DNA of 64,000 nucleotides from Gammaproteobacteria bacterium (GTDB lineage: Bacteria > Pseudomonadota > Gammaproteobacteria > Xanthomonadales > Wenzhouxiangellaceae): assembly GCA_021772985.1 (NCBI GenBank), contig JAJFKX010000055.1, forward strand, positions 1-64,000, written 5' to 3'. This document shows positions 6,439 to 64,000 of the stretch, one piece after another. The notes under the pieces are model-generated. The model was not told where the DNA came from, made no database searches, and worked only from the letters and a program-made list of their open reading frames with translations. A program made the position numbers and the translations under genes. Within the stretch, counting starts at the first letter, position 1, and the number at the start of each line of letters is the position of its first letter.

Positions 6439-7104
6439 TCATTGGTCCTGTTCAAACTGTTCAATCTCAGCAAGCAGCTGTCGAGCATTTTTCAGGCTGG
6501 TTCCAGCCATGGCCTGTTTGATGCGTGTGGCGCGTTCCGCTCTGCCGGGGTGTTGTGCCCACCGGTACCACAGCCAGGTCAAAAGCATGCCCAGAATGCC
6601 TGTGGCCACACTCCAGATTAACCATCCGCTGCTGCTGGCCTGAGCATACAGGTCAATACCAGCCAGGCCTGCGAATCCCAATGAATATGGAATCCACAAC
6701 AACCACCAGGGCAGCCCTACCAGCCACCCGGCATTGACATATGCCCGTTCAATACCCAGCAGTTGTTTTTGGATTTCAATCACCGGTGCACTGTAGTCCA
6801 GTTTTTTAATTCGCTGCATAATCTGTGCAGCGGTGATGATAAGTATGATGCCGTAAATATGTGCAATTAAACCGCTGGTCAGTAGGGGAGTGCTATCCAT
6901 GTTTTTGCTCCATACCGCCACACCGAAAATGATTGATATCACACCCAGTAGAATCTGAGTGGTGTGTCCCCAAAACAAAGGCCGCAGGCTCTTGCGGGTT
7001 TTATCCATTTTTTTATCCCGCAGCATATGCAGGTTAATTTGATTTTGTTGCTGCAGCTGTCGATCCAGGCGCTGCCAGGCAGTTTTCAGTTCATCTAGTT
7101 CCAT
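6439..7104 (-). CDS. Membrane protein coupled to ECF sigma factor, possible anti-sigma factor
   Basis: 221 residues. The ATG at 7104 is preceded by AGGAG at good spacing and gives the N-terminus MELDELKTAWQRLDRQLQQQ, a charged amphipathic start common in proteins encoded after ECF sigma genes. Two hydrophobic hairpins follow (about residues 45-100 and 125-185), so about four membrane segments, then a charged C-terminal tail. The gene begins 14 bases before the sigma stop, indicating translational coupling. A regulatory partner of the sigma factor is inferred from context; the sequence does not show a standard zinc-type anti-sigma domain. A hairpin at 6371-6397 ends the operon. Confidence 0.75.
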   Translation of the reverse strand: MELDELKTAWQRLDRQLQQQNQINLHMLRDKKMDKTRKSLRPLFWGHTTQILLGVISIIFGVAVWSKNMDSTPLLTSGLIAHIYGIILIITAAQIMQRIKKLDYSAPVIEIQKQLLGIERAYVNAGWLVGLPWWLLWIPYSLGFAGLAGIDLYAQASSSGWLIWSVATGILGMLLTWLWYRWAQHPGRAERATRIKQAMAGTSLKNARQLLAEIEQFEQDQ

Positions 7105-7660
7105 GGTGGCTGCTCCTATCATTACTTTCGCTCCTGTTGTTATCTGTTGATGTTTCACTTGCCCGTCGCAGGCGTTGTTTTAGACGGCTGATCTTGGTGG
7201 CTACATTGCTTTCGGAAATACCCAATATTTCAGCTATTTCACGCTGGTTGCGGTCCTCCAGATAAAGCAATAACAACGCCCTGTTGAGGGAATCCAGCTG
7301 GTTGATAAAACCATTCAAAAATTCAATGCCGTCATCGTTTTGCCCGGTATCAACAGCGGTATCGTGGACGCGTTCGTCAAATGCGACTAAATGCTGCTGC
7401 CGCAGGTGGTGTTTGCGGACATAAGAAATGGCGACATTGAGCCCAATCCGGTACATCCAGGTGGAGAATCGTCGGGTATCGTCATAGCCGGGGAATGCTC
7501 GCCATAATTGAGTAGCGATCTCCTGGGTAAGTTCGTCCCGGTCATCCTGGTGCCAGCAGTAGGTATGGGCAACTTTGAAAACAATCGCCTGATGCTGCTG
7601 TAATAATTCAGCAAACTGCAGTTGTTTGTTGGTCGCCGGATTCATGTCATTTGTACTCAT
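7091..7660 (-). CDS. ECF-type RNA polymerase sigma factor
   Basis: 189 residues. Sigma region 2 is visible in QHQAIVFKVAHTYCWHQDDRDELTQEI and FSTWMYRIGLNVAISYVRKH (about residues 20-90). Region 4 is in LLYLEDRNQREIAEILGISESNVATKISRLKQRLR (about 135-172), with the helix-turn-helix that reads the -35 element. It directs transcription of an unknown regulon, probably including itself. The likely partner is the overlapping membrane protein gene downstream. The ATG at 7660 has no strong Shine-Dalgarno; an alternative Met lies 5 codons in. Confidence 0.95.
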   Translation of the reverse strand: MSTNDMNPATNKQLQFAELLQQHQAIVFKVAHTYCWHQDDRDELTQEIATQLWRAFPGYDDTRRFSTWMYRIGLNVAISYVRKHHLRQQHLVAFDERVHDTAVDTGQNDDGIEFLNGFINQLDSLNRALLLLYLEDRNQREIAEILGISESNVATKISRLKQRLRRASETSTDNNRSESNDRSSHHGTR

Positions 7661-36206: not shown

Positions 36207-37913
36207 ATGAAAAAGCAATTACATCGTTTAAAGTTTCTAATAAGTGCAGTACTGGCCGTGGGCAGTATATCTTTACTGGCACAGGATTTTGATTTTGCCA
36301 ACGATGGGCGTTTGACTGCGCCGATTTATCGTTATGGCGATACTGCCGGCAATGGCCAGTTTTGGGATGGACAGGAGTTAGGCAATAACAACCTGCAGTT
36401 TCAGTACACCGGTGCAGGCCAGGCGGGGACCTATGTTTTTGGTATTGACGGCACTTTTACCACGCCATCTATCAATGTATTAAACGGCTCGACCTTCGGC
36501 AATATTATTTTTGGTGATACCGGCGGCAACAGCCAGTTCTGGAATGCAGCTGAGTTGGTTAACAACAATCTACAGGTTCAATACAGTGGTAATGGTCAGG
36601 CTGGAACTTTTCTGTTTGGTCTTGATGGTCGTTTTACATCACCGATTTATCGGTTTGGTGATACTGCCGGTAATGGTCAATTTTGGGATGCACAGGAGCT
36701 GGGCGATAACAATCTGCGCTTCCAGTACAGCGGCTCAGGTCAGGCAGGTACCTATGCATTTGGTATCAATGGCAGCTTTACCTCGCCGACTATCGAATGG
36801 GCCGACAATACCACCAATCCTAACGGGCAAACCTGGGCATCATTGGAATTGGCAGACCAGGATCTGCAGGTTCAATATTCCGGCCTGGCCCAGGCGGGTA
36901 CTTATAACTTCGGTGTGGATGGCACATTTACTTCGCCGGTAGTGCAACTGGGTGATACCGGTGGCAACAACCAGTTCTGGGATTTGGAAGAATTGGCCAA
37001 TAACGCTTTTCAGGTTCAATACAGCGGTAATGCTCAAGCCGGAACCTACAATTTTGGAGTGGATGGCACATTTACTTCACCGATAGTGCAACTGGGTGAT
37101 ACCGGTGGCAACAACCAGTTCTGGGATCTTGAAGAACTGGCCAATAATACTTTCCAGGTTCAGTACAGCGGCAATGGCCAGGCAGGTACTTATAACTTTG
37201 GTGTGGATGGCAGATTTACTGCGCCGATAGTACGTTTGGGTGATACCGGTGGTAACAGCCAATTCTGGGATATGGAAGAGTTGGGTGACAACACTTTGCA
37301 AGTCCAATACACCGGTAATGGTCAGGCCGGCACTTTTCTGTTCGGTGTAGATGGTGTGCTTGCGGCACCCGTTTTTCAAGCTGCTGACACCGGCGGCAAC
37401 GGCCAGGTGTGGACGATTGAGGAATTAGCCGACAATAACCTGGAAATTTTCTATTCCGGTAACCCCGGCCCGGAAGTGCCGACTTATGTATTTGGTGTAA
37501 ACGGTACCTTGAGCGTGCCAACGTTGGTGCAGACTTCTGATGCAAAATACAAAGAAAACATCGCGCCGTTAAGCCATGCACTGGACACGATTAATGCTTT
37601 GGAAGGCATCAGCTTTACCTGGAAAGATTCAGGCCGTGAATCAATTGGTTTTGTTGCCCAGGATATTGAACAGGTGGTACCGCAGCTGGTGCACACAGGT
37701 TCCGATGGGTCCAAAGCGGTGGAATACAGCAAAGTGGTAGCGATTTTGGTTGAAGCGCTGAAAGAGCAGCAAATTCTGATTAATGATCAGGCACATGAGC
37801 TGAAAGTCATCCGAGACGACATGGTAACTATCCGCGAGTTGAAGGCCAACCTGGAATGGCTGGAACAGGCACTGATGCCGGAAACTTTGCTACTGCTTCA
37901 GGCTAGCCGGTAA
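36207..37913 (+). CDS. Secreted repeat protein with C-terminal S74 (endosialidase-type) chaperone domain
   Basis: 568 residues from the ATG at 36207, with signal peptide MKKQLHRLKFLISAVLAVGS and onward to LLAQ. Residues about 40-435 are eight copies of a roughly 48-residue unit with the pattern DTGGNxQFWDxEEL...QVQYSGNGQAGTYxFGVDG. The last 130 residues are a Peptidase_S74 domain (SDAKYKENIAPLSHALDTI, SIGFVAQDIEQVVPQLV, KAVEYSKVVAILVEALKEQQ), which in phage tail spikes assists trimerisation and then cuts itself off before the Ser. A coiled-coil tail follows. The product is probably a trimeric fibrous surface or extracellular protein. No phage genes are nearby. Its stop overlaps the next possible ATG. 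Confidence 0.88.
   Translation: MKKQLHRLKFLISAVLAVGSISLLAQDFDFANDGRLTAPIYRYGDTAGNGQFWDGQELGNNNLQFQYTGAGQAGTYVFGIDGTFTTPSINVLNGSTFGNIIFGDTGGNSQFWNAAELVNNNLQVQYSGNGQAGTFLFGLDGRFTSPIYRFGDTAGNGQFWDAQELGDNNLRFQYSGSGQAGTYAFGINGSFTSPTIEWADNTTNPNGQTWASLELADQDLQVQYSGLAQAGTYNFGVDGTFTSPVVQLGDTGGNNQFWDLEELANNAFQVQYSGNAQAGTYNFGVDGTFTSPIVQLGDTGGNNQFWDLEELANNTFQVQYSGNGQAGTYNFGVDGRFTAPIVRLGDTGGNSQFWDMEELGDNTLQVQYTGNGQAGTFLFGVDGVLAAPVFQAADTGGNGQVWTIEELADNNLEIFYSGNPGPEVPTYVFGVNGTLSVPTLVQTSDAKYKENIAPLSHALDTINALEGISFTWKDSGRESIGFVAQDIEQVVPQLVHTGSDGSKAVEYSKVVAILVEALKEQQILINDQAHELKVIRDDMVTIRELKANLEWLEQALMPETLLLLQASR
36336..37526 (+). repeat. Eight tandem ~144-bp coding repeats
   Basis: Repeat units begin at 36336, 36513, 36657, 36801, 36951, 37095, 37239 and 37383. 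Spacings are 177, 144, 144, 150, 144, 144 and 144 bases. The units at 36951 and 37095 are the most alike at DNA level, suggesting recent duplication. All lie within the S74 protein gene and keep its frame. Confidence 0.85.
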
Positions 37914-37924
37914 TGGGGACTGTC

Positions 37925-39337
37925 ATGATTAGCAAATACCGGCATAGTTTATGTTGGCTGCTGCTATTGCTGTTGACTGTGACCGGTTGGGCACAGTCAA
38001 ATGTGATCAATAGCGGTTCATCAATCAGTATTGCAAGCGGCGTTAATGTATCAGTTGCAGGTAATCTAACCAATGGTGTGGGTGGCCTGTTTGATAATGC
38101 CGGCACCCTGAGTATTGACGGTGACTTCACCAATAATGGTGGTAATCCCGGCTTTACGGTTGGTACAGGCACGGTGGATCTGAGTGGTGCAGTTGCTCAA
38201 ACTATTGGTGGCAACAGTATCACTGGCTTTAACATACTTAACTTTTCAGGTGCCGGAAATAAGTTACTGGCTGCTGATACAAATGTTACTGACTCTTTGA
38301 ACCTTACCAGTGCCAGCCTGATCCTGCAGAGCAATACGGTTTCGATCCAGTCTGCGGACACAGCAGCTATCACCACCAATGGCGGTTTGATTGTTAGTGA
38401 AACCTCAGATGCTGCTGGGATAGTCAGCTGGGCAATCGGTACAGCGACTGGTATTTTCAATCTGCCGTTTGGAACATCGGCAGGCACTCCGGTGCCGGTG
38501 GTGGCCAATATCAATGCACCTGGAATCGGTGCGGGCAGTCTCAATTTTGCCACTTACCCAACAGCCACGAATAATTTACCGTTGCCGCCAGGTGCAACAG
38601 ATTTGGATATTCTGGATGCTGTTAGTGATGATGCCGATGTGGCGGTTAACCGCTTTTGGCTGGCCAATAGCGCAGGCTTTGGTACACCGCCTGCTTATAC
38701 GCTGACATTGACGCCCGATCCGTTGAATGATCTGGCCTTCAGTGAAGGCAATCTGGACGGCAATCTAACCGGGGTGCAATTTGCTGCCGGTGATTGGCTG
38801 GATGGCAACGGTGGAGCTGTGCCGGCCGGGTCCAGTGCCGATGTGGTGATTACTGCTGCAGGTATTATTCCGTTAGCGATTACCGGTATTAACGATCAAC
38901 CTTCATTTGTGCTAAATGCTGAAGAAGGTGTATTCGTAGGTGATTCAACCGAAGCACAAACCTTACCGGGTTTTGCAATTGATATTGACCTTGGCGCAGT
39001 GGATGACATTGAGCAGCAAGCCAACTTTTTGGTGGTAGTGGATAACCCTGCATTGTTCGCCGTGCAACCCAGTATCAATAGTGCAGGTACTTTGGACTTT
39101 GTAGCCAACTCTGATGCAGCTGGAAGTAATCCTGTAGAGGTAACGGTCACCTTGACTGACGGTGGTGGTACAGAGTTTGGCGGTGTTGACAGCTCTGATG
39201 AGCAGACATTCTTTATTTTGTTTGATGTCATCGAAGTGCCGACATTATCACCAGTTGGTCTTGGTATTTTGTTGTTGCTAGTGCTGGCTCTGACTGTTGT
39301 TACGTCAACCGGAAGGTTCAAAGCGCAGCACAATTAG
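37925..39337 (+). CDS. Exported beta-rich protein with IPTL-like C-terminal anchor
   Basis: 470 residues from the ATG at 37925 (GGGGA upstream). An alternative ATG at 37913 overlaps the previous stop as TAATG and adds four residues. Signal peptide in MISKYRHSLCWLLLLLLTVT. The body is Asn/Gly/Thr-rich with repeated beta segments (SISIASGVNVSVAGNL, TLSIDGDFTNNGGN). The C-terminus EVPTLSPVGLGILLLLVLAL then a short basic tail (TGRFKAQHN) has the plan of IPTL-CTERM sorting signals: PTLS motif, membrane helix, basic end. The usual Trp after the motif is absent. Likely processed and displayed at the surface, perhaps together with the S74 protein. Confidence 0.75.
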   Translation: MISKYRHSLCWLLLLLLTVTGWAQSNVINSGSSISIASGVNVSVAGNLTNGVGGLFDNAGTLSIDGDFTNNGGNPGFTVGTGTVDLSGAVAQTIGGNSITGFNILNFSGAGNKLLAADTNVTDSLNLTSASLILQSNTVSIQSADTAAITTNGGLIVSETSDAAGIVSWAIGTATGIFNLPFGTSAGTPVPVVANINAPGIGAGSLNFATYPTATNNLPLPPGATDLDILDAVSDDADVAVNRFWLANSAGFGTPPAYTLTLTPDPLNDLAFSEGNLDGNLTGVQFAAGDWLDGNGGAVPAGSSADVVITAAGIIPLAITGINDQPSFVLNAEEGVFVGDSTEAQTLPGFAIDIDLGAVDDIEQQANFLVVVDNPALFAVQPSINSAGTLDFVANSDAAGSNPVEVTVTLTDGGGTEFGGVDSSDEQTFFILFDVIEVPTLSPVGLGILLLLVLALTVVTSTGRFKAQHN

Positions 39338-44025: not shown

Positions 44026-44476
44026 AAAAAAACTCCTTATATTGTTGTGGGAGCCCTTTGAAAATGGCAATTATCTTCCAAGATTTTGATAGGCTTAAAA
44101 CTGGCCTGATTGTTGTCTAACTTTCGATAGGCAATTCAATAGGCGACGGCCACAGCATTATTACTACACTGTTGTGTGTAATTGAGTAAATCGAACTAGG
44201 CCAATTTGTGAAGCGCAGTTTTGAGAATTGGTGGCCGCTACTCCAATGTCTGCTTTTTCTCGTTCCCAAGCTGGAGCGTGGAAACGAGGTAAAAAGGTGT
44301 TGCATCAAGTGCAATCAGCGAAGAGCGTGGCGTTGGCATAGTAATTATTCGATAAAAGGTAAACTTATCTTATGCAATACCAAACAGCTGAACCATCAGC
44401 TGGTTCTGAAAATATTGTAAGATTGTGACTATGAGTAATGGGTGTCTGAATAACCAATCGAACTATTCACGGAAAC
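44026..44476. other. Intergenic region with a dispersed palindrome
   Basis: Divergent region between the RTX gene and the amidohydrolase gene, carrying the palindromic repeat at 44259-44288. Small frames here (such as 44208-44420) have no protein-like character. Confidence 0.5.
44259..44288. repeat. Dispersed palindrome, CGTTCCCA-type, copy 1
   Basis: CTCGTTCCCAAGCTGGAGCG then TGGAAACGAG: near-complementary ends around a CTGGAGCG centre. A second member lies at 59448-59475 with GTACCCA/TGGGTAC arms and the same GCTGGAGC core. Such short mobile-looking palindromes occur in many gammaproteobacterial genomes. Confidence 0.7.
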
Positions 44477-46330: not shown

Positions 46331-46990
46331 ATGCGTTTACACATTCCGCTCTTTATAGTTGCTGCTGTTGTTGCCGGCCAGTCCGGTGGTCAGTCCTTGA
46401 ACGTCGATTTTGGTCAGCCGGGTGATGGGCCCACAGCAACTTACAGTGCCGCTGGGCTTGCCGGGCACTGGAACAGTATTCTGGGCTCGCACGGAACCAC
46501 TACCAATGACCTGATGGGTCTGGATGGTATAGCAACCTCGGTCAGTGTTACCCAAATCGGCGGTTTGGATACTGTCAGCGGTAGCGACCCTGCGACAGGT
46601 GGGGATGACGCTCTGTTAATGGACGACTACCTCGTGACATTCAACAGCGTGCTTGAGTCATGCCTGTTCTTCGACAACCTGGTGCAGGGCGACTATGAGA
46701 TCTTGGTCTATGCCCGGATGCCGATGCAGCCCAGCGTGTTTGGATTCACATCGGTCGATCAAGAGCCGGGATTTCCCCACTATGAGGTTGGGGGTATATG
46801 GCCTGGTGGTCATCAAGAACTGATCACTTATTCCCGGCATTTCGCCACTGTCGGCCCCGATGGTGGTCTGGATATGCACTCAGGCATTGTGCCCGCAGCC
46901 AACCCGGCATTGGGAGCTGCTCTGAATGGTGTTCAACTGCGGTTGTTGAACGAGGATATTTCGGCTGACGGCTTCGAGAGCGACACCTAA
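46331..46990 (+). CDS. Small secreted protein with C-terminal GFE motif
   Basis: 219 residues, with a perfect AAGGAGGAACG ribosome site. Signal peptide MRLHIPLFIVAAVVAGQSG. The mature protein is beta-rich and Gly/Asp-rich (LNVDFGQPGDGPTATYSAAG, DYEILVYARMPMQPSVFGFT), reminiscent of a lectin- or jelly-roll-type fold; not assigned. The C-terminus NEDISADGFESDT carries the (D/E)xxxxxGFE tail shared with the giant protein (58024-52055), the gene at the right edge, and the remnant at 13725. Monocistronic. Confidence 0.72.
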   Translation: MRLHIPLFIVAAVVAGQSGGQSLNVDFGQPGDGPTATYSAAGLAGHWNSILGSHGTTTNDLMGLDGIATSVSVTQIGGLDTVSGSDPATGGDDALLMDDYLVTFNSVLESCLFFDNLVQGDYEILVYARMPMQPSVFGFTSVDQEPGFPHYEVGGIWPGGHQELITYSRHFATVGPDGGLDMHSGIVPAANPALGAALNGVQLRLLNEDISADGFESDT

Positions 46991-52054: not shown

Positions 52055-55000
52055 TTACTCAAACCCACTGACAAATATATCTTCTGACAAGGCGATCAGT
52101 GCTTCTGCAATCAAGATGGCATTTGACTCAGGATCGTCATAGCGGGTGACCAAAGCTGCGCCTAACGGTGCCAGTAATCGATCAGTGAGATCATCACTGG
52201 AATTTGGATCGAAGGTTACTGAACCGATGAATACGCCGGTATTGGCGCCGGTTTCAGTCAGCAATACTTCAATGCCGGTGGTGTCCAGGTTGCTCCAGAC
52301 CCGTACGCTGACATTATCGGTAATGGCTGGATTGATATTGGCTGAAGCAAACTCAAGAATAATATTGCCGATACTGCCAGGGGTGTAACGCTGTTGGTCA
52401 AATCGCAATGGTGAGGGCTCAAAATCTGTTGCCATTAAGGCACTGGTAGTGCAGGCGTCAGCTAAGACGTCGGTAACCAATAATGCCGGTTGTTCGGTTA
52501 GCAAGGTTAGGTTGCGAAGATTGTAGGGTCCATTGCTGCCGCTGTTGGCAATATCAGCACTTAAGAACATCAGGTTTAAGCTGCGTGTGCCGGTGGCCAG
52601 TGCCACTGTTTGGGTTTGCGCGTGGGCGATAAATTGCCCGTTGATATCAAATAAATCACCGGCGATAGCATAGTTACCGGAACTTGCAATGGTTGCCGTT
52701 ATGCTTAGGTCCAGTCTGTCGATCAAGCCATCAAAATCACTGTCAATGGTGTTTTCAGTACAACCCGGTAGCAATGTGGATGCGTTATCCAGGGTATTGG
52801 CAATACCGATGTTGGCGTTGGTTTTATCGAACCAGGCCAACCGGGTTTGGTTACCGGAAAGGGCCGAGACCGGGAATAGCTGTACGTTGTCATCATCGGT
52901 TAATGCTTGCGCTGCCGGTGGCCCGTTAAATGGGGTTCTGGATGTTGGCAGGGCCAAGGTTTGCGAGAATAAATTGCCTGTATAACCGTTGCCGTCTCCA
53001 GCTTCCTCATCAAAACTGCGATAAACAACAGTGGCCACATTAAAATCATCTACGGAAACGCTTGGTTCTTCGATGAACTGCTCGGATTCGGCCAACAATA
53101 TCTCCGTACCCCAGGCACCACTTTCATACAGTGCATAGTAAAGCTGGTCGGTGGTGGCTTGTTTGTCGATCCAAACGGCAATAAAGCGCTCGGTATCATA
53201 GCCACTGATATCAGCCATCTGTGTATAAGCCGTATTCGAGGCACTGGAATAAAGCGTTTGTTTGGCCGACCAACTGCTACCGTTAAAGGTGGAAAATACC
53301 AGGCGTGCGTCAGTGTTGGTGGCATCAAGGTTTGAGCCTCCATCAATGGTGCCATCATCACCGATGGGCAAACCAGGGTCTACAAACAACTCACCGTCCG
53401 TATCCTCGCTCCACACCGCAATGGTGGTGCCGTTGAGGCTGGCAACAGCAGGCATATAATCGGCTGCACTATCATTGCTTACTGGAATAGTTGCGGACCA
53501 GGTACTGCTGGATTCGCTGAATACTGCGCTATGAATTTCCCAGTCAGTTCGGGTTAACGGGTCATTGCTTGAGTTATTGTCGTGTACCCAAACAGCAATC
53601 GCTTCATTGTTGTTGGCGTCGTAGCCAATGTCTGCTGAACCATCACCCTGGCTATCAGCGGTTAAATCGGTGGGCGCGGTCCACAACTCGGAATTGCTGT
53701 CCCACGCTGACCAGGCAATTTCCTGTTCATTAATAATATCGCCAAGTTGAGACAGGCTGGGTGAGCCACCATTGCTGGTCCAAATTGCAACTGCATTACC
53801 ACCATTTAAGAAGGTCACGGCCGGGTCCATTTCCCAACGGTTGTCAGGTGTTGGTGTAGCTCTTAGGGGGGCTGGTGCATCCAGGCCGGTGCCATCATCG
53901 TATTGAAATAAGAGCTCCGGATTGGGTGAAGCCACACCGACATTTTCAGTAAATATCAGCATTGCCCGGCCGCTGGCGTCGCCGGCTAATGCATGGGTAC
54001 TGATGAAGGTTGACTCAGGGTCTTGTAAGCCCTGGCGTGCCTGCATCATGGCAAAGTTCTCATCGATACGCGGTTCGATAAAATCACCCCAGGTGTAAGG
54101 TCCCAGCATGGCGGTGCCGACTTCGGCTGATGCCAGCCCAAAAAATACGGATGCCTCAACCATAAAATCGACCGTCAAACGGCCGCCAAAACGGGGGGAT
54201 TCCAAGCCATTGGCGGTGCTGTAAGGTAAATGGATCTGTCCTGCAGCCGTTGGGCTGGCAGTGGCTACTGCTTTGGCCAGACCGAACAAGGCACTGATAG
54301 ATGCCGCAGCGCTAAGCTGGATAGTGGGTTCGGGACTGAGCAACAGTTGGCTGAATTCTAAATTTTCATTCAAGTAAACCCGGCCAACTGCACTAACCTG
54401 CAGTACACCGCCGAGATCAATGGCAACTGTAACCGGCACACCGTATACCAACACCGTGCGCCCAAAGCTTTTTTCGCCTAATGAAACAGCGGTAGACGCG
54501 CCAATGGTGCCAACTGGTTCATCAGGTGAATTGAATTCAAAATTTTGATCGAAACCGGCAGATACCGATCCAAACAGGGTTACCGGCCGGTTAAACAGCG
54601 TGATGTCACGCTCAATTCCACCACTCAATGAAGAGTTGGAATCGATATCGTAACCCGCTTCCAGCATTAACCTGAAGCCGGGTCCGCCTAAGTCATTTTG
54701 CGCACCACCCAACAATGCAACAACATTTTCCACCGCTTCGGTCCAGACAAAGTCGGTAGGGTATTCAAAGCTGATTTTATATTCACGCTCGCTATCATCA
54801 AATTCTGATGTAATGCCTTCGGCGATAAATTCCACGGCATTAAACCAGGCTGGAATGCCGATAGCCTGTACTGGGTAATCGACGCTGACGGATGAAGGCA
54901 TGCCTCTGATGGTGGTACGCTGCTGTTGGCCCGATGGCAAGGTGACGGTGATGGTGATATCCAATTGATCGGTTTCCATAACATCCTGCATATCCAGGGT

Positions 55001-58000
55001 GGCCTGGAAAGGGGAGGTGAGATCCATTTCACTTTGGCCGGCGAGCGCAAAACTGACTTCATCCAGGGTAAAGTCCATTAAGTCCTCAGGTGCCAGCTCT
55101 ACAGTGAATTCGTTTTGTGCTTCGATGGTTTGTACAAATGTCCGCAGTTGATTTTCTGCCGGGCGAAATGACATCAGTGAATCAGTCAGGCTAATACCTG
55201 CAGCGGTCTGGTTGAAATCGGCAAAGTCATTAATCACCGAACAACCGGCTGGTTGAGTATCAAATTGCGCCCGCAGGGCATAAGTGCCCCCGGTTTCACC
55301 AAAGGTAAACCCGGTGCTGGCCTGGCTGGAAGCATCAAGTGGTATGGTGATCTCGTTCATCCCGTTGGGATACATGCCTTGATTGACTGTATCGGGTAGA
55401 TCGCGAATGGAATACTCAACGCCCCCGCATACTGGGAACTGATTTTCTGCCATCACCAGCATATCAACGGGTAGGTCGTTTTCTATCAACCCGCCCTGAT
55501 TATTACCGCTGGCTACAGTTAAACTTCCACCCGCAATTTCAATCACTCGCCCGTTGACCGAGCCGGCTGGTGTAACCGGTGCACCACCTTGAATTCTGGC
55601 AACAACATTGGCGCTATCCAAAGCTGGCCGGTAGTCTTCGCATAAGCAGGCTGATTCACCCAAATCAATAGTCACAATCCAGAATTCGGTTTGGCCTGCC
55701 GGGATCGGCCTGTCAATTGCATTGAACAGTAAAGTACCGTTATCAGCGGTAAAAAAACGTGCCGTGCTCAACATTGGATCACCGGCATCAACCATGCCGT
55801 TGCCGTTTACGTCGCGAATTAAATTGACTTCTTCCAGATCAAATTCATCATCGCCATCACCACTGATGGTTAAGGTAATGTCCTCAACCACTATGGTGTC
55901 TTCAGCAGAAGCGGTAAAGCTGAAATGCAAAGCGACAATATCGGTGGTGGCAGCAAACTGGACGGGCAGGGTGGAATTACCCGGGCCTTCTGCCAGCACC
56001 AATGCAGCAGGGTCAAAGCCGAAATCTGCATCGTTGAAATCCTGACCTGCACCCAGGTTGACCACATCAGGATTGCTGCCTGCGGTTAGCTGAGCGCCGA
56101 TCAAAACAGTAACGCCATCAACTGGGATACTTACCAGATAATTAGCAGCGCTCAGATTCTGGAAGTCATACTCCCCCATCGCACCGGTGTTTTGGGTTTG
56201 TATGAAGGTGTCGCTTTCATCCAGAACATTGGGGATGGCGCCATCATCACGAAATAGCTCGACGGCAATACCGGCGAAACCGATATCATTGCCGTCCATT
56301 ACACCATTACCATTAAAATCCTGGAACACCAGGTCACCAATCGAGCCATTATCCGACGGTAGCAATGGGCTTTCGAAGGCACCGCTATCGACGATACCAT
56401 TTTGAATTCTTGCCTGGCCGCGCTGATCGGTAGGCAGTCCGCTGGCCAAAGTATTGCTGCCGGCGTTGATCGCCTGGCTTTGTGCGCCTAATGCATGTGT
56501 CATGGTAGGGCCGCCGTTGCTGCTTAGCGGCATCAAATCTGCGTTGGCGCTAATCAGATCGCTGGACAATGATGGGAAACCCAACAATACCTCACCAATC
56601 AGATTGAAGCCGCCGGTGTAAACGCCGCTGACCAGATCGGTGGATGGATTGCCGGCAAAAGTTGTGTCTATGAAAATATTGTTGCTCAGTTCAATGTTCG
56701 ACCCTTCCATTCTGGCGCCGGTTACACCATTGGTTGCGGCAACCGTGTTGTTTCGGAAGGTGAGGTCGGTTGCTCTAAGGTTTACCCCGATGTTTCCGTT
56801 TGTTGAGAATGTTGAGTTTTCAACGGTCACTGATGGGTTTAGAAAAGTGCTGACTCTAATGGTTTGCAGCCCACCGCCGTTATTGCTGATTTCCGAGCGT
56901 TTAACCGTTGCACTGGAGCCGGTGCCGATGGCAATACCGCTTCCGGTATTGCCTGAAACGGTTGAATCTTCAATAGTTAAAGCGACCCCGTTGTTGACCA
57001 TGCTGGTGGTTCCCCCAACGGATATGCCGCCGCCGCTGTTGCCACTGACAGTACTGCTCAGAATTGAAACATTCATACTGTCAATATCCACAGCACGGAC
57101 ATTGATGCCATCGCTGGTACCGCCGCTGATAGTAGAGTTTTGAATGCTGATCGTATAGTCATCTATCGGTGACCCGAATGGGACATCAACGCGCAGGCTG
57201 GCTGCGTTTGGGAAGCTTGCGCCGCTCATCATTAAGCTGGAATTGGTCATCATCAGGTTGGAGCTTAAAACCTGCAAAATGGCATCCGGGCCTTCAAACT
57301 GGCTGATATCAACCGTGACCATGGAATAATTTCTCAGGCTTACACTGCCACTTCGGAAAGTTGAGTTGACTATGCTGGCAGTGGGTAGCGGCATAGCTGG
57401 ATCAGCGGTCAATTGCAGGCCGCCTAGATCACTGTTCGAGATGATCAGGTTTTTGGCAAAAGCGCCGGTTAAATGGGTAATACTGGCTGTGACGTTACTG
57501 TTCAGAATGCTGAGTGAGCCTCTGCCTGTCGCCACGGTGCCGGTTGTGTCAGTGTTGTTAAGGGTAAAATCCGCGCTGACGTTAGAAGCAAAGCTTACCG
57601 CAGCATTGACACCGTCTTCGGCATCAATAATGATGTTTTCAAATGTTATCTGTTGATTGGAAAACCCTTCAATTCTAAAAATGCTGTGATCATTTGCGCC
57701 GGTATTATTGGATTTGACTGTGATTTGATTGGCGCCATCGATAATCAAATCTTCGGTCACGGTGTTGTGTACAAACGGTTGCGACAGCAGGCTATGGGTA
57801 ATTGTGCCGGATACGGAAAACTCAATTCTGTCCAGGCCAATGGAACCGGCAGCGCAGCTATCTCTGGCCGAGTTGAGGTTGGCTGCCGCGACAGCTTCCA
57901 CCAGGGTGCAGTTGCCGTTATCGGTAAAGTCGTCGGCTAAAGTAGTGACGGTAATGGTAGCGGCAGAGGCTGCTGTACAACACCCGCCAATTAGCAGCAA

Positions 58001-58024
58001 AGCCACTCGCAAATAAATATTCAT
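52055..58024 (-). CDS. Giant secreted beta-helix surface protein with C-terminal GFE motif
   Basis: 1989 residues. Signal peptide MNIYLRVALLLIGGCCTAASA. A CSLREA-like domain follows (residues about 22-75: VTTLADDFTDNGNCTLVEAV), then a right-handed parallel beta-helix with many Asn/Ser/Thr (about 80-480). A choice-of-anchor Q type segment (NGGPTMTHALGAQSQAINAG) lies at about 495-555 and an SdrD B-like domain (IGDLVFQDFNGNGVMDGND) at about 565-680. The rest comprises a long beta-rich middle, a propeller-like region (about 1380-1790: GNAVAIWTSNGG, TTIAVWSEDTDGE) and an ending IALSEDIFVSGFE. Probably an adhesin or surface matrix protein. It is the last gene of an operon behind a sigma factor and a TM protein. 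Confidence 0.85.
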   Translation of the reverse strand: MNIYLRVALLLIGGCCTAASAATITVTTLADDFTDNGNCTLVEAVAAANLNSARDSCAAGSIGLDRIEFSVSGTITHSLLSQPFVHNTVTEDLIIDGANQITVKSNNTGANDHSIFRIEGFSNQQITFENIIIDAEDGVNAAVSFASNVSADFTLNNTDTTGTVATGRGSLSILNSNVTASITHLTGAFAKNLIISNSDLGGLQLTADPAMPLPTASIVNSTFRSGSVSLRNYSMVTVDISQFEGPDAILQVLSSNLMMTNSSLMMSGASFPNAASLRVDVPFGSPIDDYTISIQNSTISGGTSDGINVRAVDIDSMNVSILSSTVSGNSGGGISVGGTTSMVNNGVALTIEDSTVSGNTGSGIAIGTGSSATVKRSEISNNGGGLQTIRVSTFLNPSVTVENSTFSTNGNIGVNLRATDLTFRNNTVAATNGVTGARMEGSNIELSNNIFIDTTFAGNPSTDLVSGVYTGGFNLIGEVLLGFPSLSSDLISANADLMPLSSNGGPTMTHALGAQSQAINAGSNTLASGLPTDQRGQARIQNGIVDSGAFESPLLPSDNGSIGDLVFQDFNGNGVMDGNDIGFAGIAVELFRDDGAIPNVLDESDTFIQTQNTGAMGEYDFQNLSAANYLVSIPVDGVTVLIGAQLTAGSNPDVVNLGAGQDFNDADFGFDPAALVLAEGPGNSTLPVQFAATTDIVALHFSFTASAEDTIVVEDITLTISGDGDDEFDLEEVNLIRDVNGNGMVDAGDPMLSTARFFTADNGTLLFNAIDRPIPAGQTEFWIVTIDLGESACLCEDYRPALDSANVVARIQGGAPVTPAGSVNGRVIEIAGGSLTVASGNNQGGLIENDLPVDMLVMAENQFPVCGGVEYSIRDLPDTVNQGMYPNGMNEITIPLDASSQASTGFTFGETGGTYALRAQFDTQPAGCSVINDFADFNQTAAGISLTDSLMSFRPAENQLRTFVQTIEAQNEFTVELAPEDLMDFTLDEVSFALAGQSEMDLTSPFQATLDMQDVMETDQLDITITVTLPSGQQQRTTIRGMPSSVSVDYPVQAIGIPAWFNAVEFIAEGITSEFDDSEREYKISFEYPTDFVWTEAVENVVALLGGAQNDLGGPGFRLMLEAGYDIDSNSSLSGGIERDITLFNRPVTLFGSVSAGFDQNFEFNSPDEPVGTIGASTAVSLGEKSFGRTVLVYGVPVTVAIDLGGVLQVSAVGRVYLNENLEFSQLLLSPEPTIQLSAAASISALFGLAKAVATASPTAAGQIHLPYSTANGLESPRFGGRLTVDFMVEASVFFGLASAEVGTAMLGPYTWGDFIEPRIDENFAMMQARQGLQDPESTFISTHALAGDASGRAMLIFTENVGVASPNPELLFQYDDGTGLDAPAPLRATPTPDNRWEMDPAVTFLNGGNAVAIWTSNGGSPSLSQLGDIINEQEIAWSAWDSNSELWTAPTDLTADSQGDGSADIGYDANNNEAIAVWVHDNNSSNDPLTRTDWEIHSAVFSESSSTWSATIPVSNDSAADYMPAVASLNGTTIAVWSEDTDGELFVDPGLPIGDDGTIDGGSNLDATNTDARLVFSTFNGSSWSAKQTLYSSASNTAYTQMADISGYDTERFIAVWIDKQATTDQLYYALYESGAWGTEILLAESEQFIEEPSVSVDDFNVATVVYRSFDEEAGDGNGYTGNLFSQTLALPTSRTPFNGPPAAQALTDDDNVQLFPVSALSGNQTRLAWFDKTNANIGIANTLDNASTLLPGCTENTIDSDFDGLIDRLDLSITATIASSGNYAIAGDLFDINGQFIAHAQTQTVALATGTRSLNLMFLSADIANSGSNGPYNLRNLTLLTEQPALLVTDVLADACTTSALMATDFEPSPLRFDQQRYTPGSIGNIILEFASANINPAITDNVSVRVWSNLDTTGIEVLLTETGANTGVFIGSVTFDPNSSDDLTDRLLAPLGAALVTRYDDPESNAILIAEALIALSEDIFVSGFE

Positions 58025-58112
58025 ACTGCACCGATTTACTCAACTGGTTTCCCTATATGTCAAAACAGTTGATTCCGTTACAGTTATATTGATTGGCTGG
58101 TCGCTGGTGACG

Positions 58113-58646
58113 TTATTCGTCGATTTTATCCGCTGCTCTTTCCAGATCGCTATACAACAATTGTAAGCGTGCCAGGGCTTGCTCAGTTTGCCGTTGTTTA
58201 TCCAGCATAGCTGCCTGGTTTTTTTCGAATTCCAATATCTGCACGTTTTGCTGTTCAATCTGCTGCTGCTGGCTCACCAGCAGATAGCCCAACAAAGACA
58301 GGATGGCTGCTGCTATTGTCATAGCAATGCCCCAAAACCACCGTTTGTGATCGGATGGTGCTTCCCGGTTACTGACCCATTGATTGATTGTTTCGGAGAA
58401 CACTGCTTTGTCCTGCAGGTTACTGGAAAGACTGATCATATGGCTGATGGACTGTTCCTGATCAGAGCTGAAATCACCGCCGGTGTAACCATCAATCAAT
58501 TCTGTTTCCGCAGCCAACAGCTGCTCGTAGTAAGCATCATCATTTAGCAACCGCTGTTCAACCAGGGTACGCTCGGCTTCATCCAGGCTGTCATCCAGCA
58601 ACTGGGTTAACACCTGTGCCTGCTTGCTGAGTGGGTTACTGCTCAT
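58113..58646 (-). CDS. Anti-sigma-like single-TM protein
   Basis: 177 residues from the ATG at 58646, with GGAG 8 bases upstream. The cytoplasmic N-terminal helical part (about residues 1-85) is rich in charged residues (LDDSLDEAERTLVEQRLLND, as in anti-sigma factors), a single membrane helix lies at about 101-121 (FWGIAMTIAAAILSLLGYLL), and the periplasmic or cytoplasmic tail is a long Gln-rich coiled coil (QQQQIEQQNVQILEFEKNQA). It overlaps the end of the sigma gene by 11 bases, indicating coupled synthesis. No zinc-binding anti-sigma motif is seen. Confidence 0.75.
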   Translation of the reverse strand: MSSNPLSKQAQVLTQLLDDSLDEAERTLVEQRLLNDDAYYEQLLAAETELIDGYTGGDFSSDQEQSISHMISLSSNLQDKAVFSETINQWVSNREAPSDHKRWFWGIAMTIAAAILSLLGYLLVSQQQQIEQQNVQILEFEKNQAAMLDKQRQTEQALARLQLLYSDLERAADKIDE

Positions 58647-59259
58647 CTTTACACTCCACTGTTGGTGGTGGCTCGAGTTCCAGCATGCGTTGTTCCAGTC
58701 GGTTACGAATCCTGAATACTTTGATGCGTAAATTACTGTCAGAGAGCGCAAACTTTTGCTTAAGCTTTTGCCTGCTGGTAATTCGGTTACCGGATGGGTG
58801 ACGGTAATAAGCTAATATCAGCTCACGGTCATTTTCCGGTAATTCCATGATGCACTGCTCCAGACGAATCAGTTTTGGGCTGGTCATCTCACGCTCAAAC
58901 AGATCAGCAGGACGTGCTTTAATTTCGCTGACCGCATGGTTGTGCTTACGGTGGCTGCGCAATACCTCCAGGTATATCTTATGAGCAACACCAATAACAA
59001 ATTGCTCGATTTTTCCACCTAGCTGATGATCACATGTAACTCTTTTCGCCACCCGGTTCATGGTTTCATCAGCAAGCTCGGGAGCATCGGCACAACCACG
59101 CCAGGTGAACAGGCGAATTAGCTTGTTGCGCAGTTTTTCGTAACGAAGCGCAGCCTGATGAGAGTCATCATCAAGGCATAGCAATAGCGCCGCAAACGAG
59201 TTGGCGCTTAAGCCGTTGGTCGTTTGTTCCAAGCCTTTTTTAATGGCTGAGTCGGTCAT
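58636..59259 (-). CDS. ECF-type sigma factor (possibly kinase-associated group)
   Basis: 207 residues. Region 2 is in RNKLIRLFTWRGCADAPELADETMNRVAKRV and VIGVAHKIYLEVLRSHRKH (about residues 42-100). Region 4 is in LEQCIMELPENDRELILAYYRHPSGNR and SDSNLRIKVFRIRNRLEQRM (about 128-195). A kinase gene is divergently encoded 590 bases away, reminiscent of ECF groups activated by Ser/Thr phosphorylation; assignment to such a group is inference. Probably controls the adjacent giant-protein gene and itself. Confidence 0.85.
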   Translation of the reverse strand: MTDSAIKKGLEQTTNGLSANSFAALLLCLDDDSHQAALRYEKLRNKLIRLFTWRGCADAPELADETMNRVAKRVTCDHQLGGKIEQFVIGVAHKIYLEVLRSHRKHNHAVSEIKARPADLFEREMTSPKLIRLEQCIMELPENDRELILAYYRHPSGNRITSRQKLKQKFALSDSNLRIKVFRIRNRLEQRMLELEPPPTVECKDEQ

Positions 59260-59447
59260 AGACGAATTACATCGGTGCTTATTATTGATGTATTTTTATG
59301 CGAATCTGTTACACAAGTAAACTATAGCAGTTTAAATTTTAAGGTTTTGATGCTTTAAGCAGAAGGGTCTATCAGGCTGGTAACCCTGCCCAAGTAAACG
59401 GTAATTAATGTATGGGTCGTGCCCAGGTGTGCGACCTGTTAAAAACC

Positions 59448-59475
59448 CGTACCCACGCTGGAGCATGGGTACGAG
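59448..59475. repeat. Dispersed palindrome, CGTACCCA-type, copy 2
   Basis: CGTACCCACGCTGGAGCATG then GGTACGAG: inverted GTACCCA/TGGGTAC ends around GCTGGAGC. Same design as the repeat at 44259-44288. Confidence 0.7.
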
Positions 59476-59504
59476 AAAAAGAATATACGAGTAAACCACT
59501 GATA

Positions 59505-59564
59505 GTAGGAGCGGACCAGGTCGCGACCGTGGTTAACTGGGTCGCTCCCGGCTGCGTCTCTACA
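59505..59564. repeat. Degenerate GTAGGAGCGG-type inverted repeat
   Basis: Starts GTAGGAGCGG and ends CGTCTCTACA with internal GGTCGCGACC and GGTCGCTCCC segments; arms are imperfect. Related in design to the perfect element at 13624-13697. Confidence 0.6.
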
Positions 59565-59850
59565 GGTCAATATGAATATACAAGGTAATCATAGATTGTA
59601 GAAATAAAAAACTGGCTCATATTATCAATGTTATGGTATTGAAGCTTAGCAATAGTTCCGCAGAGACCAGCTATATCCGGGTTAAGATAGTTAATACCCA
59701 CGATGGGAGTTTTTGTAATCAATAACATTTCACCAATACCAATGCATATTTCTTGTCAATCGTTCTATTCTGGTACGTGCATGTTCTGTTTTGGTGAGTT
59801 AAAGCTAAGCTTTGGTGATATGAGGCAAAGCTGTAGGCCCGGTCAGTTTG

Positions 59851-62800
59851 ATGAATAACCAAGCTCAAAAATTAAAACTGTTGCCCGATGGCACAGTCAT
59901 CGCTGAACGCTATCAAATTGAAGGGTTTATTGCTGCCGGCACACATGGCCAGGTGTACCGGGCGTTGGATCTGGAACTTGAGCAGGTTATTGCATTGAAA
60001 CTGCTACATCCCGGTCTGGCTAAAAGCTCAAAAATGGTAGCGCGTTTTAAAAAAGAATTGCTGATTGCGCGGAAAGTAACCCACAAGAATGTCTGCCGTG
60101 TTTTTGATGTCTGCAAGAGTAGCGTTTTACTCGGCCCAGAGCCTACGGAAATCCTTTTTATCACGATGGAATTGATCCAGGGAAAAACGCTGGCAGATTA
60201 CCTGGAACGCAAAACAAAGCCTTTTGATCAGTATCAGTCGATTGATATTATTCAGCAAGTGATCGCCGGGCTGGATGAAGCGCATCAGCATCAATTTATT
60301 CATGGCGATGTAAAGGCCAGCAATATCATTCTCAGCGAACAACCTGGCGGGTCTTTACGAGCAGTAATTACGGACTTCGGTTTATCCCATGCCAGCCACC
60401 CCGGCGAGTCAGTAACAGCAGCTGCAAAAATGCAAGGCACGCCATTGTATATGGCACCCGAGCAGGTTTCCGGTGAGCCGTTATCGCCGGCTACCGATGT
60501 TTTTTCGTTAGGTGTGCTGATCTATAGAATGTTGATGGGGCAGTGGCCTTTTCATGAACAAACCGCGCTGCTGACAGCGCTTAAACGACTATATACATCA
60601 CCAACTGATGTTGGCCGGTTAAGCAAAACTGTTGGTAAACAAACCGCCAAGGCCATTCTTCGATGTTTGGAGCGTGAGCCACAAAAACGTTTCCAGAGTC
60701 TGAAACCGTTAAACCATATTCTCACCGGGGAAAAACCCAGGCGCGTTAAAACAACCAGATTGTGGTTAGCTGCGACGACGTTGGTTGTGCTTGCAGGTTC
60801 GGGTATCTGGTATTTATACAATCAGACTGCGGCAATACAAACCCCGATAGCAACTGGTGTACAGCACCGTCCAACGGTTGCGATACTACCGTTGCTTAAT
60901 CAAACCGGCAATGTAGAGCTGGACTGGTTGGGTACCAGCGTACAAAAATCCGCTATCAGCAGATTGCAGACAATAGATGTATTAAGATCGATTAGTGCAG
61001 AAAACATCAGTCAGTTATTACTTCAGGCTCCACCGGCAGATGATCTAACCCGGCAGCACTGGGTGGCAACTACCAGTGGTGCTGATTGGTTTGTAATCGG
61101 CAACTATCAATTGGATAAAGCAGCAGATACCAACTGGCATATCAGATTAGTAGCCGTCACTGATGGTAGGACGCTGTTTGAAACCAGTTACAACATGCAG
61201 CAGGCTGAACTAAATCAGACTGGTATTGAATTGACGGATCAACTGTTGGATCACCTGCAAATAAAGACTAACCAGACCAAGGTGTTAGGCGCAGATCAAC
61301 CCATTAGTATCTTGGCGTTATCTAATTACTCGCAAGGTTTGGATTTGTTATACCAGTTCAAACCTGATCAGGCACTGGATTATTTTTACCAGGCGCTGGA
61401 GCTGGCACCTGATAACCCGGTTATTGAATCGGCCCTGGCTGAAGCGCTGTCAAAACTAGGCAAGTTGGTTGAATCTAAACAGACATTAATAAATGCACAA
61501 CGGCATTCGGAAAACTTAAACCGTCGTGAGCGTTTAAGTATAGAAGCTCGATTGCATCTGGCGGAAAGAAATTTTGAGCGTGCAGCAGAAATATACACCG
61601 CTTTACGGGAGTTTTTTCCTGATGAATTGGAGTTCGGGCTGTCTTTGGCAACAGCATTGGCAAGTGGCGGCAAACTAGTAACGGCTTTTGCAACCTTAAA
61701 CGAGTTACGCGACCTTCCGGCTGAACTTGGCAATGATGTGCGTATTGATCTGTTGGAGGCGGAACTGGCAGCTATTCATAGTGAGTTTGAGGTGGCCCGT
61801 TTAGCAACAACCAGGGCCCTGGAGAAAGGACGAAACAGTCATACTCCGCTGGTGATTGCCAATGCTTTGCGCTGGCAGGCCAGGGTGCTTTATTACGCCG
61901 ATTCAGAATCGCTAAAGGCGATTGAAGCTTTACGCAATGCACGAGAGATTTATATGGCTCTGGGTATTACCCGTTCGGTAGCTGATGTTGCTACCGAGCT
62001 GGCTGACTTGTCACGACATCAGGCTGACGCCGAATTGTCGGCGCAGCTTTATGATGAAGCGTTACAAGCCAGTGAAACCATTGGTGATACTGAACTACGT
62101 GGCAGAATAATGAATGGCCGGGCGGATTTAATATCAGGTTTAGGGCAATACGCAGATGCACTGGCAATATACCAACAAATACTACAGGAGCAACAAGATG
62201 TTAAGGGTTCCAGTCTGTTGGGTTTAATGCATCACAATATCGGTACAACAGCAGTCAAACTGGGTGATCTCGACTTGGGCTGGCAACACCTTTCGCAAGC
62301 AAACCAAATTTACCAACAGGCCAATGACCGCTACGGCATGATGCTGGTTAACTATGCAATGGGCAGCTTTTGGAAAACCAAAGGCGAGTTAAAACCGGCA
62401 TCTATCAGCTTCAAACAAGCGTTGTCGCTGGCAGAAGCAATAGACAGTCAATCATGGGCCGCATACGCCAGATTGGAAATCGGTGATATCGCCAGAAGGC
62501 AAGGTGATTATGCTACTGCAGTGGCAACAGCCACCGTGGTGTTCAATACCTTTTTGCAAAGGGGTGAAGAAGTTCGTGCAGCGCGAGTCGGTATCAGCCT
62601 GGGTGGGTTTTTGATTTACGCCGGCGACTATAAAACTGCAGGTGAAGTGGCAAATCAATCGCTGGTATTGATAGAAAAACATCAGATCAAACAATCAATC
62701 GGCCAGGTTCACAGTGTTTTGGCGCATGTGCATGCACATTTTGGTGAAAACGATAAGCTGAAAACCCACCTGCAAAAAGCGACTGATGCGTTACCTTTGA

Positions 62801-63111
62801 TGGGACAGATAGAACACCGCTTGTTGTTGCAAGATAGCCTGGCAATGATTGGTTATGACGCTGGGGTTTTTGAGAGAGCTTATGTTAAGACACAGTTGCA
62901 GCAGGTTCATCGTGCGGCACAACCAGATGGCTTAATGTTACCGCTGCTCAGGTCGAAATATAACCTGGCAAAAATCAGCAATGACGAAGGCGGCTCGGAG
63001 CAATCTGACCTGGCATTGCAACAAGTCTATGCTCAAGCTCAGGAATTAGGTTTCACCCGGCTGGCTGATAAAGCCAATACGCTGATGGAAAATACCAGTC
63101 GTAACAACTGA
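59851..63111 (+). CDS. Membrane Ser/Thr protein kinase with TolB-like and TPR domains
   Basis: 1086 residues from the ATG at 59851. Kinase domain about 20-285: glycine loop IAAGTHGQVYRA, catalytic Lys50 in VIALKLL, catalytic loop HGDVKASN (HGD in place of HRD, so a non-RD kinase with Asp153, Lys155 and Asn158 kept), DFG at 175-177, and a GTPLYMAPEQ activation segment. One membrane helix at about 303-323. The outer part starts with a TolB-like segment (VAILPLLNQTGNVELDWLGT) and continues with about a dozen TPR-type helices. The adjacent sigma factor is a plausible substrate. Confidence 0.92.
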   Translation: MNNQAQKLKLLPDGTVIAERYQIEGFIAAGTHGQVYRALDLELEQVIALKLLHPGLAKSSKMVARFKKELLIARKVTHKNVCRVFDVCKSSVLLGPEPTEILFITMELIQGKTLADYLERKTKPFDQYQSIDIIQQVIAGLDEAHQHQFIHGDVKASNIILSEQPGGSLRAVITDFGLSHASHPGESVTAAAKMQGTPLYMAPEQVSGEPLSPATDVFSLGVLIYRMLMGQWPFHEQTALLTALKRLYTSPTDVGRLSKTVGKQTAKAILRCLEREPQKRFQSLKPLNHILTGEKPRRVKTTRLWLAATTLVVLAGSGIWYLYNQTAAIQTPIATGVQHRPTVAILPLLNQTGNVELDWLGTSVQKSAISRLQTIDVLRSISAENISQLLLQAPPADDLTRQHWVATTSGADWFVIGNYQLDKAADTNWHIRLVAVTDGRTLFETSYNMQQAELNQTGIELTDQLLDHLQIKTNQTKVLGADQPISILALSNYSQGLDLLYQFKPDQALDYFYQALELAPDNPVIESALAEALSKLGKLVESKQTLINAQRHSENLNRRERLSIEARLHLAERNFERAAEIYTALREFFPDELEFGLSLATALASGGKLVTAFATLNELRDLPAELGNDVRIDLLEAELAAIHSEFEVARLATTRALEKGRNSHTPLVIANALRWQARVLYYADSESLKAIEALRNAREIYMALGITRSVADVATELADLSRHQADAELSAQLYDEALQASETIGDTELRGRIMNGRADLISGLGQYADALAIYQQILQEQQDVKGSSLLGLMHHNIGTTAVKLGDLDLGWQHLSQANQIYQQANDRYGMMLVNYAMGSFWKTKGELKPASISFKQALSLAEAIDSQSWAAYARLEIGDIARRQGDYATAVATATVVFNTFLQRGEEVRAARVGISLGGFLIYAGDYKTAGEVANQSLVLIEKHQIKQSIGQVHSVLAHVHAHFGENDKLKTHLQKATDALPLMGQIEHRLLLQDSLAMIGYDAGVFERAYVKTQLQQVHRAAQPDGLMLPLLRSKYNLAKISNDEGGSEQSDLALQQVYAQAQELGFTRLADKANTLMENTSRNN

Positions 63112-63177: not shown

Positions 63178-64000
63178 TTATTCAAACCCCGTGGCAAAGA
63201 AGGATTCTGCTCCTAAGGTGGAAAACCGTTGGTTAACCCGGGTAATATTGCCTTGGTTATCTGCTATTTCCACATATACAAGACCAGTCGCTATTGAAGG
63301 TATTGGGTTATTCAAACTGATCACGAATATTCCGTCTCCGGTGGTATTAGCCAGATCAGCAAGTTCAGCTCCCGGCGGGCGCCCCTGTACCGTAAAGTCT
63401 GTGGTTACTGACAAAGTATCCATATTCAGCCCCTTGTAGGCATCTGTCATGCCGAACCTAAGGCTGTTAACCGGTGCGCTATTGAATCCAGGTCTGGGTG
63501 AACTGACAGTTACCGTTGGTCTTAGATCATCCAGAAACCAGCCCCATGGGCCATCATCACTGTTACCTGCGCCCTGGTTGATCGGCGCGCCTAAATCGAC
63601 CCAGCGTGCAAACAGCATTTTTTGATCTTCGGTTAAGGCTGCGGTGGTTCCAGGTGGTGGCATGATGGTGCCGATGTAATCAATGTCGGCATCATTGGGA
63701 TTGGCTCCGACGGGCAAAGTGCTCTGATCACCGGGTATGGTTTCAGTGGGGTGATCAGCATTGCTCCAGCCGTCCAGACGGCGACCGAATATTTTCCAGA
63801 TCAACAGGCTGCGGCGGCTTTGGAACATCCGAATATAACGACTGGCATTGGTCTGCCGCCAGATACCGTTATTGATCACCGGTGGATAACCCCAGTCGGC
63901 ATCCTGGTCGTCTGCCAGCCGTTTATAGTCACCAGGTAAACCGCTGTACAGGCTTAAATCATCCAGAACCAGATTGCCGTCAGGGTTTGGATTATTAACT
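63178..64000 (-). CDS. Partial large exported protein with GFE motif, cytochrome-c-like region
   Basis: The C-terminal 274 codons; the frame stays open to the window edge, so the start is outside. The region HPTETIPGDQSTLPVGANPN, IDYIGTIMPPPGTTAALTED and FARWVDLGAPINQG resembles the ending of planctomycete-type cytochrome/heme-binding domains (MPPP then D..RWIDLGAP), as in HzsA-like large proteins. The ending is TLGAESFFATGFE, the fourth GFE tail in the window. Probably exported; a redox or surface role is uncertain. A GTG within it at 63879 is not a true start. Confidence 0.65.
   Translation of the reverse strand, partial: VNNPNPDGNLVLDDLSLYSGLPGDYKRLADDQDADWGYPPVINNGIWRQTNASRYIRMFQSRRSLLIWKIFGRRLDGWSNADHPTETIPGDQSTLPVGANPNDADIDYIGTIMPPPGTTAALTEDQKMLFARWVDLGAPINQGAGNSDDGPWGWFLDDLRPTVTVSSPRPGFNSAPVNSLRFGMTDAYKGLNMDTLSVTTDFTVQGRPPGAELADLANTTGDGIFVISLNNPIPSIATGLVYVEIADNQGNITRVNQRFSTLGAESFFATGFE

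Follow-up and report, generated by a model that had tools for sequence, protein, structure and literature searches.

In a gammaproteobacterium, a gene for an ECF sigma factor overlaps a gene for a transmembrane (TM) protein, is followed by a gene encoding a giant secreted protein, and faces a TM Ser/Thr kinase gene across a divergent intergenic region. Here, we asked whether these genes form one regulatory module and, if so, by which step the sigma factor would be switched on. We analyzed the 64,000-nucleotide stretch of contig that carries them, which we call the window. The features of the locus are as follows.

52055–58024, minus strand: giant secreted protein gene, 1989 aa
52055–52075, minus strand: C-terminal FxxGFE-stop tag of the giant protein (FVSGFE)
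58113–58646, minus strand: anti-sigma-like TM protein gene, 177 aa, best start ATG 58646
58636–59259, minus strand: ECF sigma factor gene, 207 aa
59260–59850: divergent intergenic region between the sigma and kinase genes, 588–591 bases
59446–59475, minus strand: 13-pair palindrome, terminator-like or repeat-like, in the intergenic region
59505–59551: REP-like imperfect palindrome, GTAGGAGCGGACCAGGTCGCGACC...GGTCGCTCCCG, in the intergenic region
59851–63111, plus strand: TM Ser/Thr kinase gene, 1086 aa, better start ATG 59851 (TTG 59848 as alternative)

A preliminary description of the locus had reported most of this arrangement. The overlap of the sigma and TM-protein genes was borne out and amounts to 11 bp with ATG 58646, or more with the upstream TTG 58751. 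The spacing before the giant gene is also real, but it is 88 bases (58025–58112) and not the 89 first given. The 1989-residue secreted protein is present, with a signal-like N-terminal segment, and the membrane kinase with TPRs was confirmed, with one TM-like segment and the TPRs after it. The kinase gene is divergent from the sigma operon and not co-operonic with it. The stretch between them had been called a 590-base control region. Its length holds, but the regulatory role finds no support, as it contains two palindromic elements and no sigma-70-like site above chance. Since both elements are repeat-like, the length of the region says little about regulation. A partial copy of one of the palindrome motifs was seen at 44262.

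The sigma factor and its membrane partner

Judged by its sequence, the window sigma is an ECF sigma factor of about 200 aa, with sigma2 and sigma4 and without sigma3, and is a member of an ECF family abundant in Acidobacteriota. We built profiles of the sigma factor and of the TM protein from six acidobacterial pairs, leaving the window out. The window sigma scored 137 bits (E 7.7e-41) against its profile, and the next unrelated ECF sigma scored about 40 bits. TIGR02937 covers residues 38–192 at 33.8 bits, below its cut-off of 42.9. A close homologue in the acidobacterial locus L170 passes PF08281, and the profile of the family matches the solved ECF sigma SigL (6dv9) with an E value of 5.4e-6. 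In the sigma alignment, sigma2.2 of the window sigma reads DAPELADET. The Pfam search gave no PF07638 match in the window sigma, compared with 16 matches elsewhere in the genome. One of these genome-mates (L077) is a genuine PF07638 sigma followed by a kinase on the same strand, which is the usual ECF43 layout.

The neighboring TM protein has a helical N-domain with an E47-T-E-L-I-D motif, one hydrophobic segment (residues 103–126), and then a coiled coil. It scored 40 bits (E 4.5e-11) against the acidobacterial-homologue profile. Its anti-sigma domain family has no Pfam model and no NCBIfam model above cut-off, the match to NF052375 (E 7.6e-6) lying below the cut-off of that model. Comparison of the window anti-sigma profile with solved mycobacterial anti-sigmas gave no significant similarity (3hug_B, E 0.84), and a two-sequence AlphaFold model was all-helical at low confidence (pLDDT 56.5, pTM 0.29). 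Of 66 homologous loci, 65 have a same-strand anti-sigma-like gene adjoining the sigma gene, the lone exception being at a contig end, and the partners are one-helix membrane proteins of this kind. The profile match and this adjacency back the original view of an anti-sigma-like TM partner, and the TM protein is almost certainly the anti-sigma of the window sigma. The anti-sigmas of the window and of two acidobacterial loci, L170 and L176, are all short with a coiled coil (177, 177, and 200 aa). Short forms are otherwise confined to three reading frames of 109–119 aa, which may be truncated.

The kinase and the origin of the trio

The kinase matches Pkinase in Pfam (E 7.8e-45), has TPRs in its C-terminal region, and carries its TM-like segment at residues 304–322, numbered from ATG 59851. 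The catalytic residues K51, D154, K156, N159, and D176–G178 (numbered from TTG 59848) are kept; the catalytic Asp is thus 154 from the TTG and 153 from the ATG. The protein is a Hanks-type Ser/Thr kinase with predicted catalytic activity. In it, HGD replaces the HRD of its acidobacterial relatives, which makes it a non-RD kinase. With a single TM-like segment in the kinase and another in the anti-sigma, the TPR region of the former and the coiled coil of the latter are expected in the periplasm, and the N-domain of the anti-sigma in the cytoplasm.

The best kinase matches within the organism's own family have FHA, histidine kinase, or response regulator neighbors and no sigma, and on this basis the kinase at first appeared to be a chance neighbor. 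That view was made unlikely by L170 and L176. In both, a TPR Ser/Thr kinase gene lies directly upstream of, and on the same strand as, the sigma gene and a short anti-sigma gene, in a tight cluster. Their full-length kinases scored 363 and 292 bits against the window kinase, compared with 216 for the best own-family match, and were the top two among the sequences gathered up to that stage. These were the only trios found besides the window. In a survey of this kinase subfamily covering 199 acidobacterial genomes, many kinases stood alone, and 28 of 30 loci had no sigma next door.

We then compared separate trees of the two proteins. In the full-length kinase tree, the window, L170, and L176 form one clade with support of 94/96. 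The domain-only kinase tree places the window in a 17-row clade (100/99) that is otherwise all acidobacterial and lies apart from every kinase of its own order; this tree is poorly resolved and does not make L170 + L176 the sister group of the window. In the sigma tree (73 rows), the window is sister to L170 + L176 with moderate support (88/18) and a long window branch, inside a wider nine-row clade supported at 98/97. The kinase–sigma link claimed at the outset is supported by the L170/L176 neighborhood and by both trees. A lack of this neighborhood in relatives had been named as grounds for refuting the link, and the outcome does not refute it: the neighborhood is absent from the 60 nearest genomes but present as a tight operon in L170 and L176. 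Since the separate kinase and sigma trees pick the same two loci, and these have the short coiled-coil anti-sigma as well, the best reading is joint inheritance of kinase, sigma, and anti-sigma. The three are probably one module, with the kinase a true part of it. Given joint inheritance, the divergent kinase of the window, which contrasts with the same-strand kinases of L170 and L176, would be a rearrangement.

The distribution of the sigma family indicates where the module came from. No sigma relative was found in the 60 nearest genomes, or in 338 other Pseudomonadota genomes at E 1e-15. Clear relatives occur in only two of the 397 other genomes of the order (L160 and L161), both belonging to another family, while 47 of 396 Acidobacteriota genomes carry the family in up to seven copies each. 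A single plasmid match was obtained, a weak one from Granulicella, an acidobacterium. Given its absence from the nearest and the other Pseudomonadota genomes, the module was almost certainly acquired by lateral transfer from the distant Acidobacteriota.

Most members of the family have a different neighbor. A TPR-CHAT protease gene lies next to the sigma/anti-sigma pair in 45 of the 66 labeled loci, and CHAT is sometimes fused to the anti-sigma. Neither L170 nor L176 has a CHAT neighbor, and a phmmer search of the window and of the remainder of its contig (L011) found no CHAT gene. Acidobacterial loci combining TPR-CHAT, ECF sigma, and membrane anti-sigma are numerous (L010, L162–L168, L210–L249), and the sigma and anti-sigma of such loci (L010, L162, L164, and others) are homologous to those of the window.

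The giant protein and its C-terminal tail

The giant protein contains right-handed beta-helix and SdrD_B domains (Pfam) behind a CSLREA-like N-terminus. It matches the choice-of-anchor Q model NF041518 at 65.7 bits (cut-off 25), and the CSLREA model at 22.6 bits, just under the cut-off of 25. Its relatives match fragments only, namely the N-terminus, the beta-helix/anchor part, the SdrD domain, or a short C-terminal stretch. The preliminary description had made this protein a matrix-like effector for surface display within the module; that claim is not supported, since the protein does not accompany the module in other genomes and has matches to fragments only. It is lineage-specific, and at most a plausible target of the sigma factor. 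Because the gap before its gene is only 88 bases and has no terminator above chance, the gene may be co-transcribed with the sigma and anti-sigma genes. By a crude test, 18 of 66 distinct loci, window included, have a secreted-like protein encoded after the anti-sigma; in L161, for example, it is a 1336-residue peptidase with Ig-like domains.

The giant protein ends in FVSGFE, and the next large protein past the kinase (63178–66129) ends in FATGFE, its tag lying at 63178–63198. The latter protein, given in contig numbering as the window ends at 64000, is secreted, 983 aa long, and has a CGGCH haem-like motif; it is encoded convergently with the kinase gene. Across 41 genomes of the order, the FxxGFE-stop DNA pattern matched 270 times, with a maximum of 50 per genome, compared with 11 times for a reversed control. 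Most of the matching proteins whose start is visible carry a signal peptide, and the tail follows proteins of varied kinds. Some relatives end in variants such as FADDFED or FSDRFEG, just past an apparent choice-of-anchor Q domain. No described counterpart of the signal was found in NCBIfam or the literature, and the tail looks like an undescribed C-terminal tag that is enriched order-wide on secreted proteins. Elsewhere in the window, a secreted protein at 46331–46990 ends in ..EDISADGFESDT, a variant of the GFE tail, and another at 37913–39337 has a C-terminus resembling the IPTL-CTERM anchor (VPTLSPVGLGILLLL..). The window also contains a second ECF sigma gene (7091–7660, minus strand), overlapped by a membrane-protein gene (6439–7158).

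Control of the sigma factor

We propose a three-gene switch in which the membrane anti-sigma holds the sigma and the TPR kinase releases or activates it by phosphorylation, and we consider the chances of this proposal being right to be about even. The single-pass anti-sigma would tether the ECF sigma at the membrane. When the TPR region, the coiled coil, or both sense a signal in the periplasm, the cytoplasmic kinase would be turned on and would phosphorylate the sigma in its sigma2–sigma4 linker (T126) and/or the anti-sigma in its N-domain (position 48). The sigma would thereby be released or activated, and would transcribe its own operon and probably the downstream exported-protein gene. The sequences show the anatomy of the genes, their homology, the conservation of the trio, and an origin outside the lineage of the host; we infer the kinase activity, the phosphorylated partner, the topology, and the output of the switch.

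Both proposed positions are leads from three related sequences, chosen after inspection: T126 (codon 58882–58884) in the linker is, across the whole sigma alignment, the only all-S/T column of the window, L170, and L176 sigmas (S/T in 8 of 64 other sigmas), and anti-sigma position 48 is S/T in the same three loci and mostly D/N/E elsewhere (S/T in 9 of 63 others). T126 is our candidate phospho-acceptor in the window sigma. The sequence suggests that this sigma could bind core polymerase once freed and may need no phosphorylation for that. As the acidic sigma2.2 is kept, control more likely acts at the release of the sigma from its anti-sigma.

The proposed switch has precedents. In EcfK/PknS of Xanthomonas citri and EcfP/PknT of Vibrio parahaemolyticus, both ECF43 systems, the sigma adjoins a TM Ser/Thr kinase as in the window. 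In PknS, as predicted for the window kinase, the kinase domain is N-terminal and cytoplasmic and the TPRs are periplasmic; PknS phosphorylates EcfK at T104/T106/S108/S110 in the sigma2–sigma4 linker, where the window sigma has T126; T106 matters for activity (PMC13147305). The SigE/RseA, SigL/RslA, and SigH/RshA pairs of Mycobacterium tuberculosis, together with PknB, likewise combine an ECF sigma, an anti-sigma, and a TM Ser/Thr kinase. PknB phosphorylates the anti-sigma RseA (PMC10027907), and it phosphorylates SigH in the same sigma2–sigma4 loop along with its anti-sigma RshA (PMC13147305). PknB, however, has many target proteins and PASTA sensors, whereas the window kinase has TPRs and a gene adjacent to the pair.

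We weighed three other explanations. One is an ordinary sigma/anti-sigma pair in which the anti-sigma itself senses the signal and lets the sigma go, the kinase beside it having some other substrate; this seems unlikely to us, if far from fanciful. Kinases of this type mostly stand alone, that of the window is divergent, and most relatives of the pair (45 of 66) neighbor a TPR-CHAT protease instead; nevertheless, the window kinase and sigma each group, in separate trees, with the same two kinase-linked loci, and those loci and the window have the short anti-sigma in common.

We regard as distinctly improbable a proteolytic switch, in which control lies in cleavage of the anti-sigma by a CHAT protease whose gene is elsewhere or by site-1/site-2 proteases, with the kinase only tuning the response. 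This would fit the TPR-CHAT genes that adjoin or fuse with the anti-sigma in most homologues, and a weak match of the L170 sigma to NF041236, the type III-E CRISPR-associated sigma model (24.6 bits, below cut-off, region 4 only). In the type III-E CASP-sigma/Csx30/Csx29 set, an inhibitor-held ECF sigma likewise adjoins a TPR-CHAT protease, and Csx29 cuts Csx30, relieving CASP-sigma inhibition (PMC10028731). The logic is like that of the acidobacterial CHAT loci. In the window module, on the other hand, a kinase takes the place of CHAT, CRISPR is absent, and no CHAT gene lies nearby; both kinase-linked relatives also do without CHAT neighbors, and the window anti-sigma is short, with no output domain past the coiled coil. 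Homology to CASP-sigma is at best weak, as the sigma family matched nothing of it among solved structures up to E 10, and homology to Csx30 was undetected.

ECF43 factors usually come without an anti-sigma. Direct activation of the ECF43 type would have the kinase supply the negative charge that sigma2.2 lacks, and the TM protein would not be an anti-sigma. We find this very hard to credit: the neighborhood resembles EcfK/PknS and EcfP/PknT, and the genome has a PF07638 sigma–kinase pair of its own (L077), but the window sigma has no PF07638 match, retains DAPE where ECF43 replaces DAED by the non-acidic STTA with its phosphorylatable Thr (PMC8999054), and belongs to a family with an anti-sigma-like gene adjacent in 65 of 66 relatives. 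Of the early analogy to EcfP/PknT and EcfK/PknS, the kinase–sigma link stands and ECF43 membership was rejected on these grounds; the window sigma is of another ECF family, with an acidic sigma2.2 and a dedicated putative membrane anti-sigma.

Returning to the three-gene switch, a broader and somewhat doubtful proposal is that one ECF/anti-sigma core takes exchangeable inputs, mostly TPR-CHAT and rarely a TPR kinase hitting T126 or the anti-sigma, and that the kinase form moved laterally into this gammaproteobacterium. If true, the form with CHAT would correspond, on the chromosome, to the output stage of the type III-E CRISPR Craspase. As the anti-sigma domain has no family model, such sigma/anti-sigma pairs are probably missed in annotation. 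ECF sigmas are usually described with either an anti-sigma or a neighboring kinase, the main exception being mycobacterial PknB with its many substrates. A dedicated, inherited trio of kinase, sigma, and anti-sigma would unite two of the main routes of bacterial signaling in a single unit, and offers a direct test at a single conserved Thr. The wider family would be a natural experiment, in which the same sigma/anti-sigma core is joined to protease or kinase inputs.
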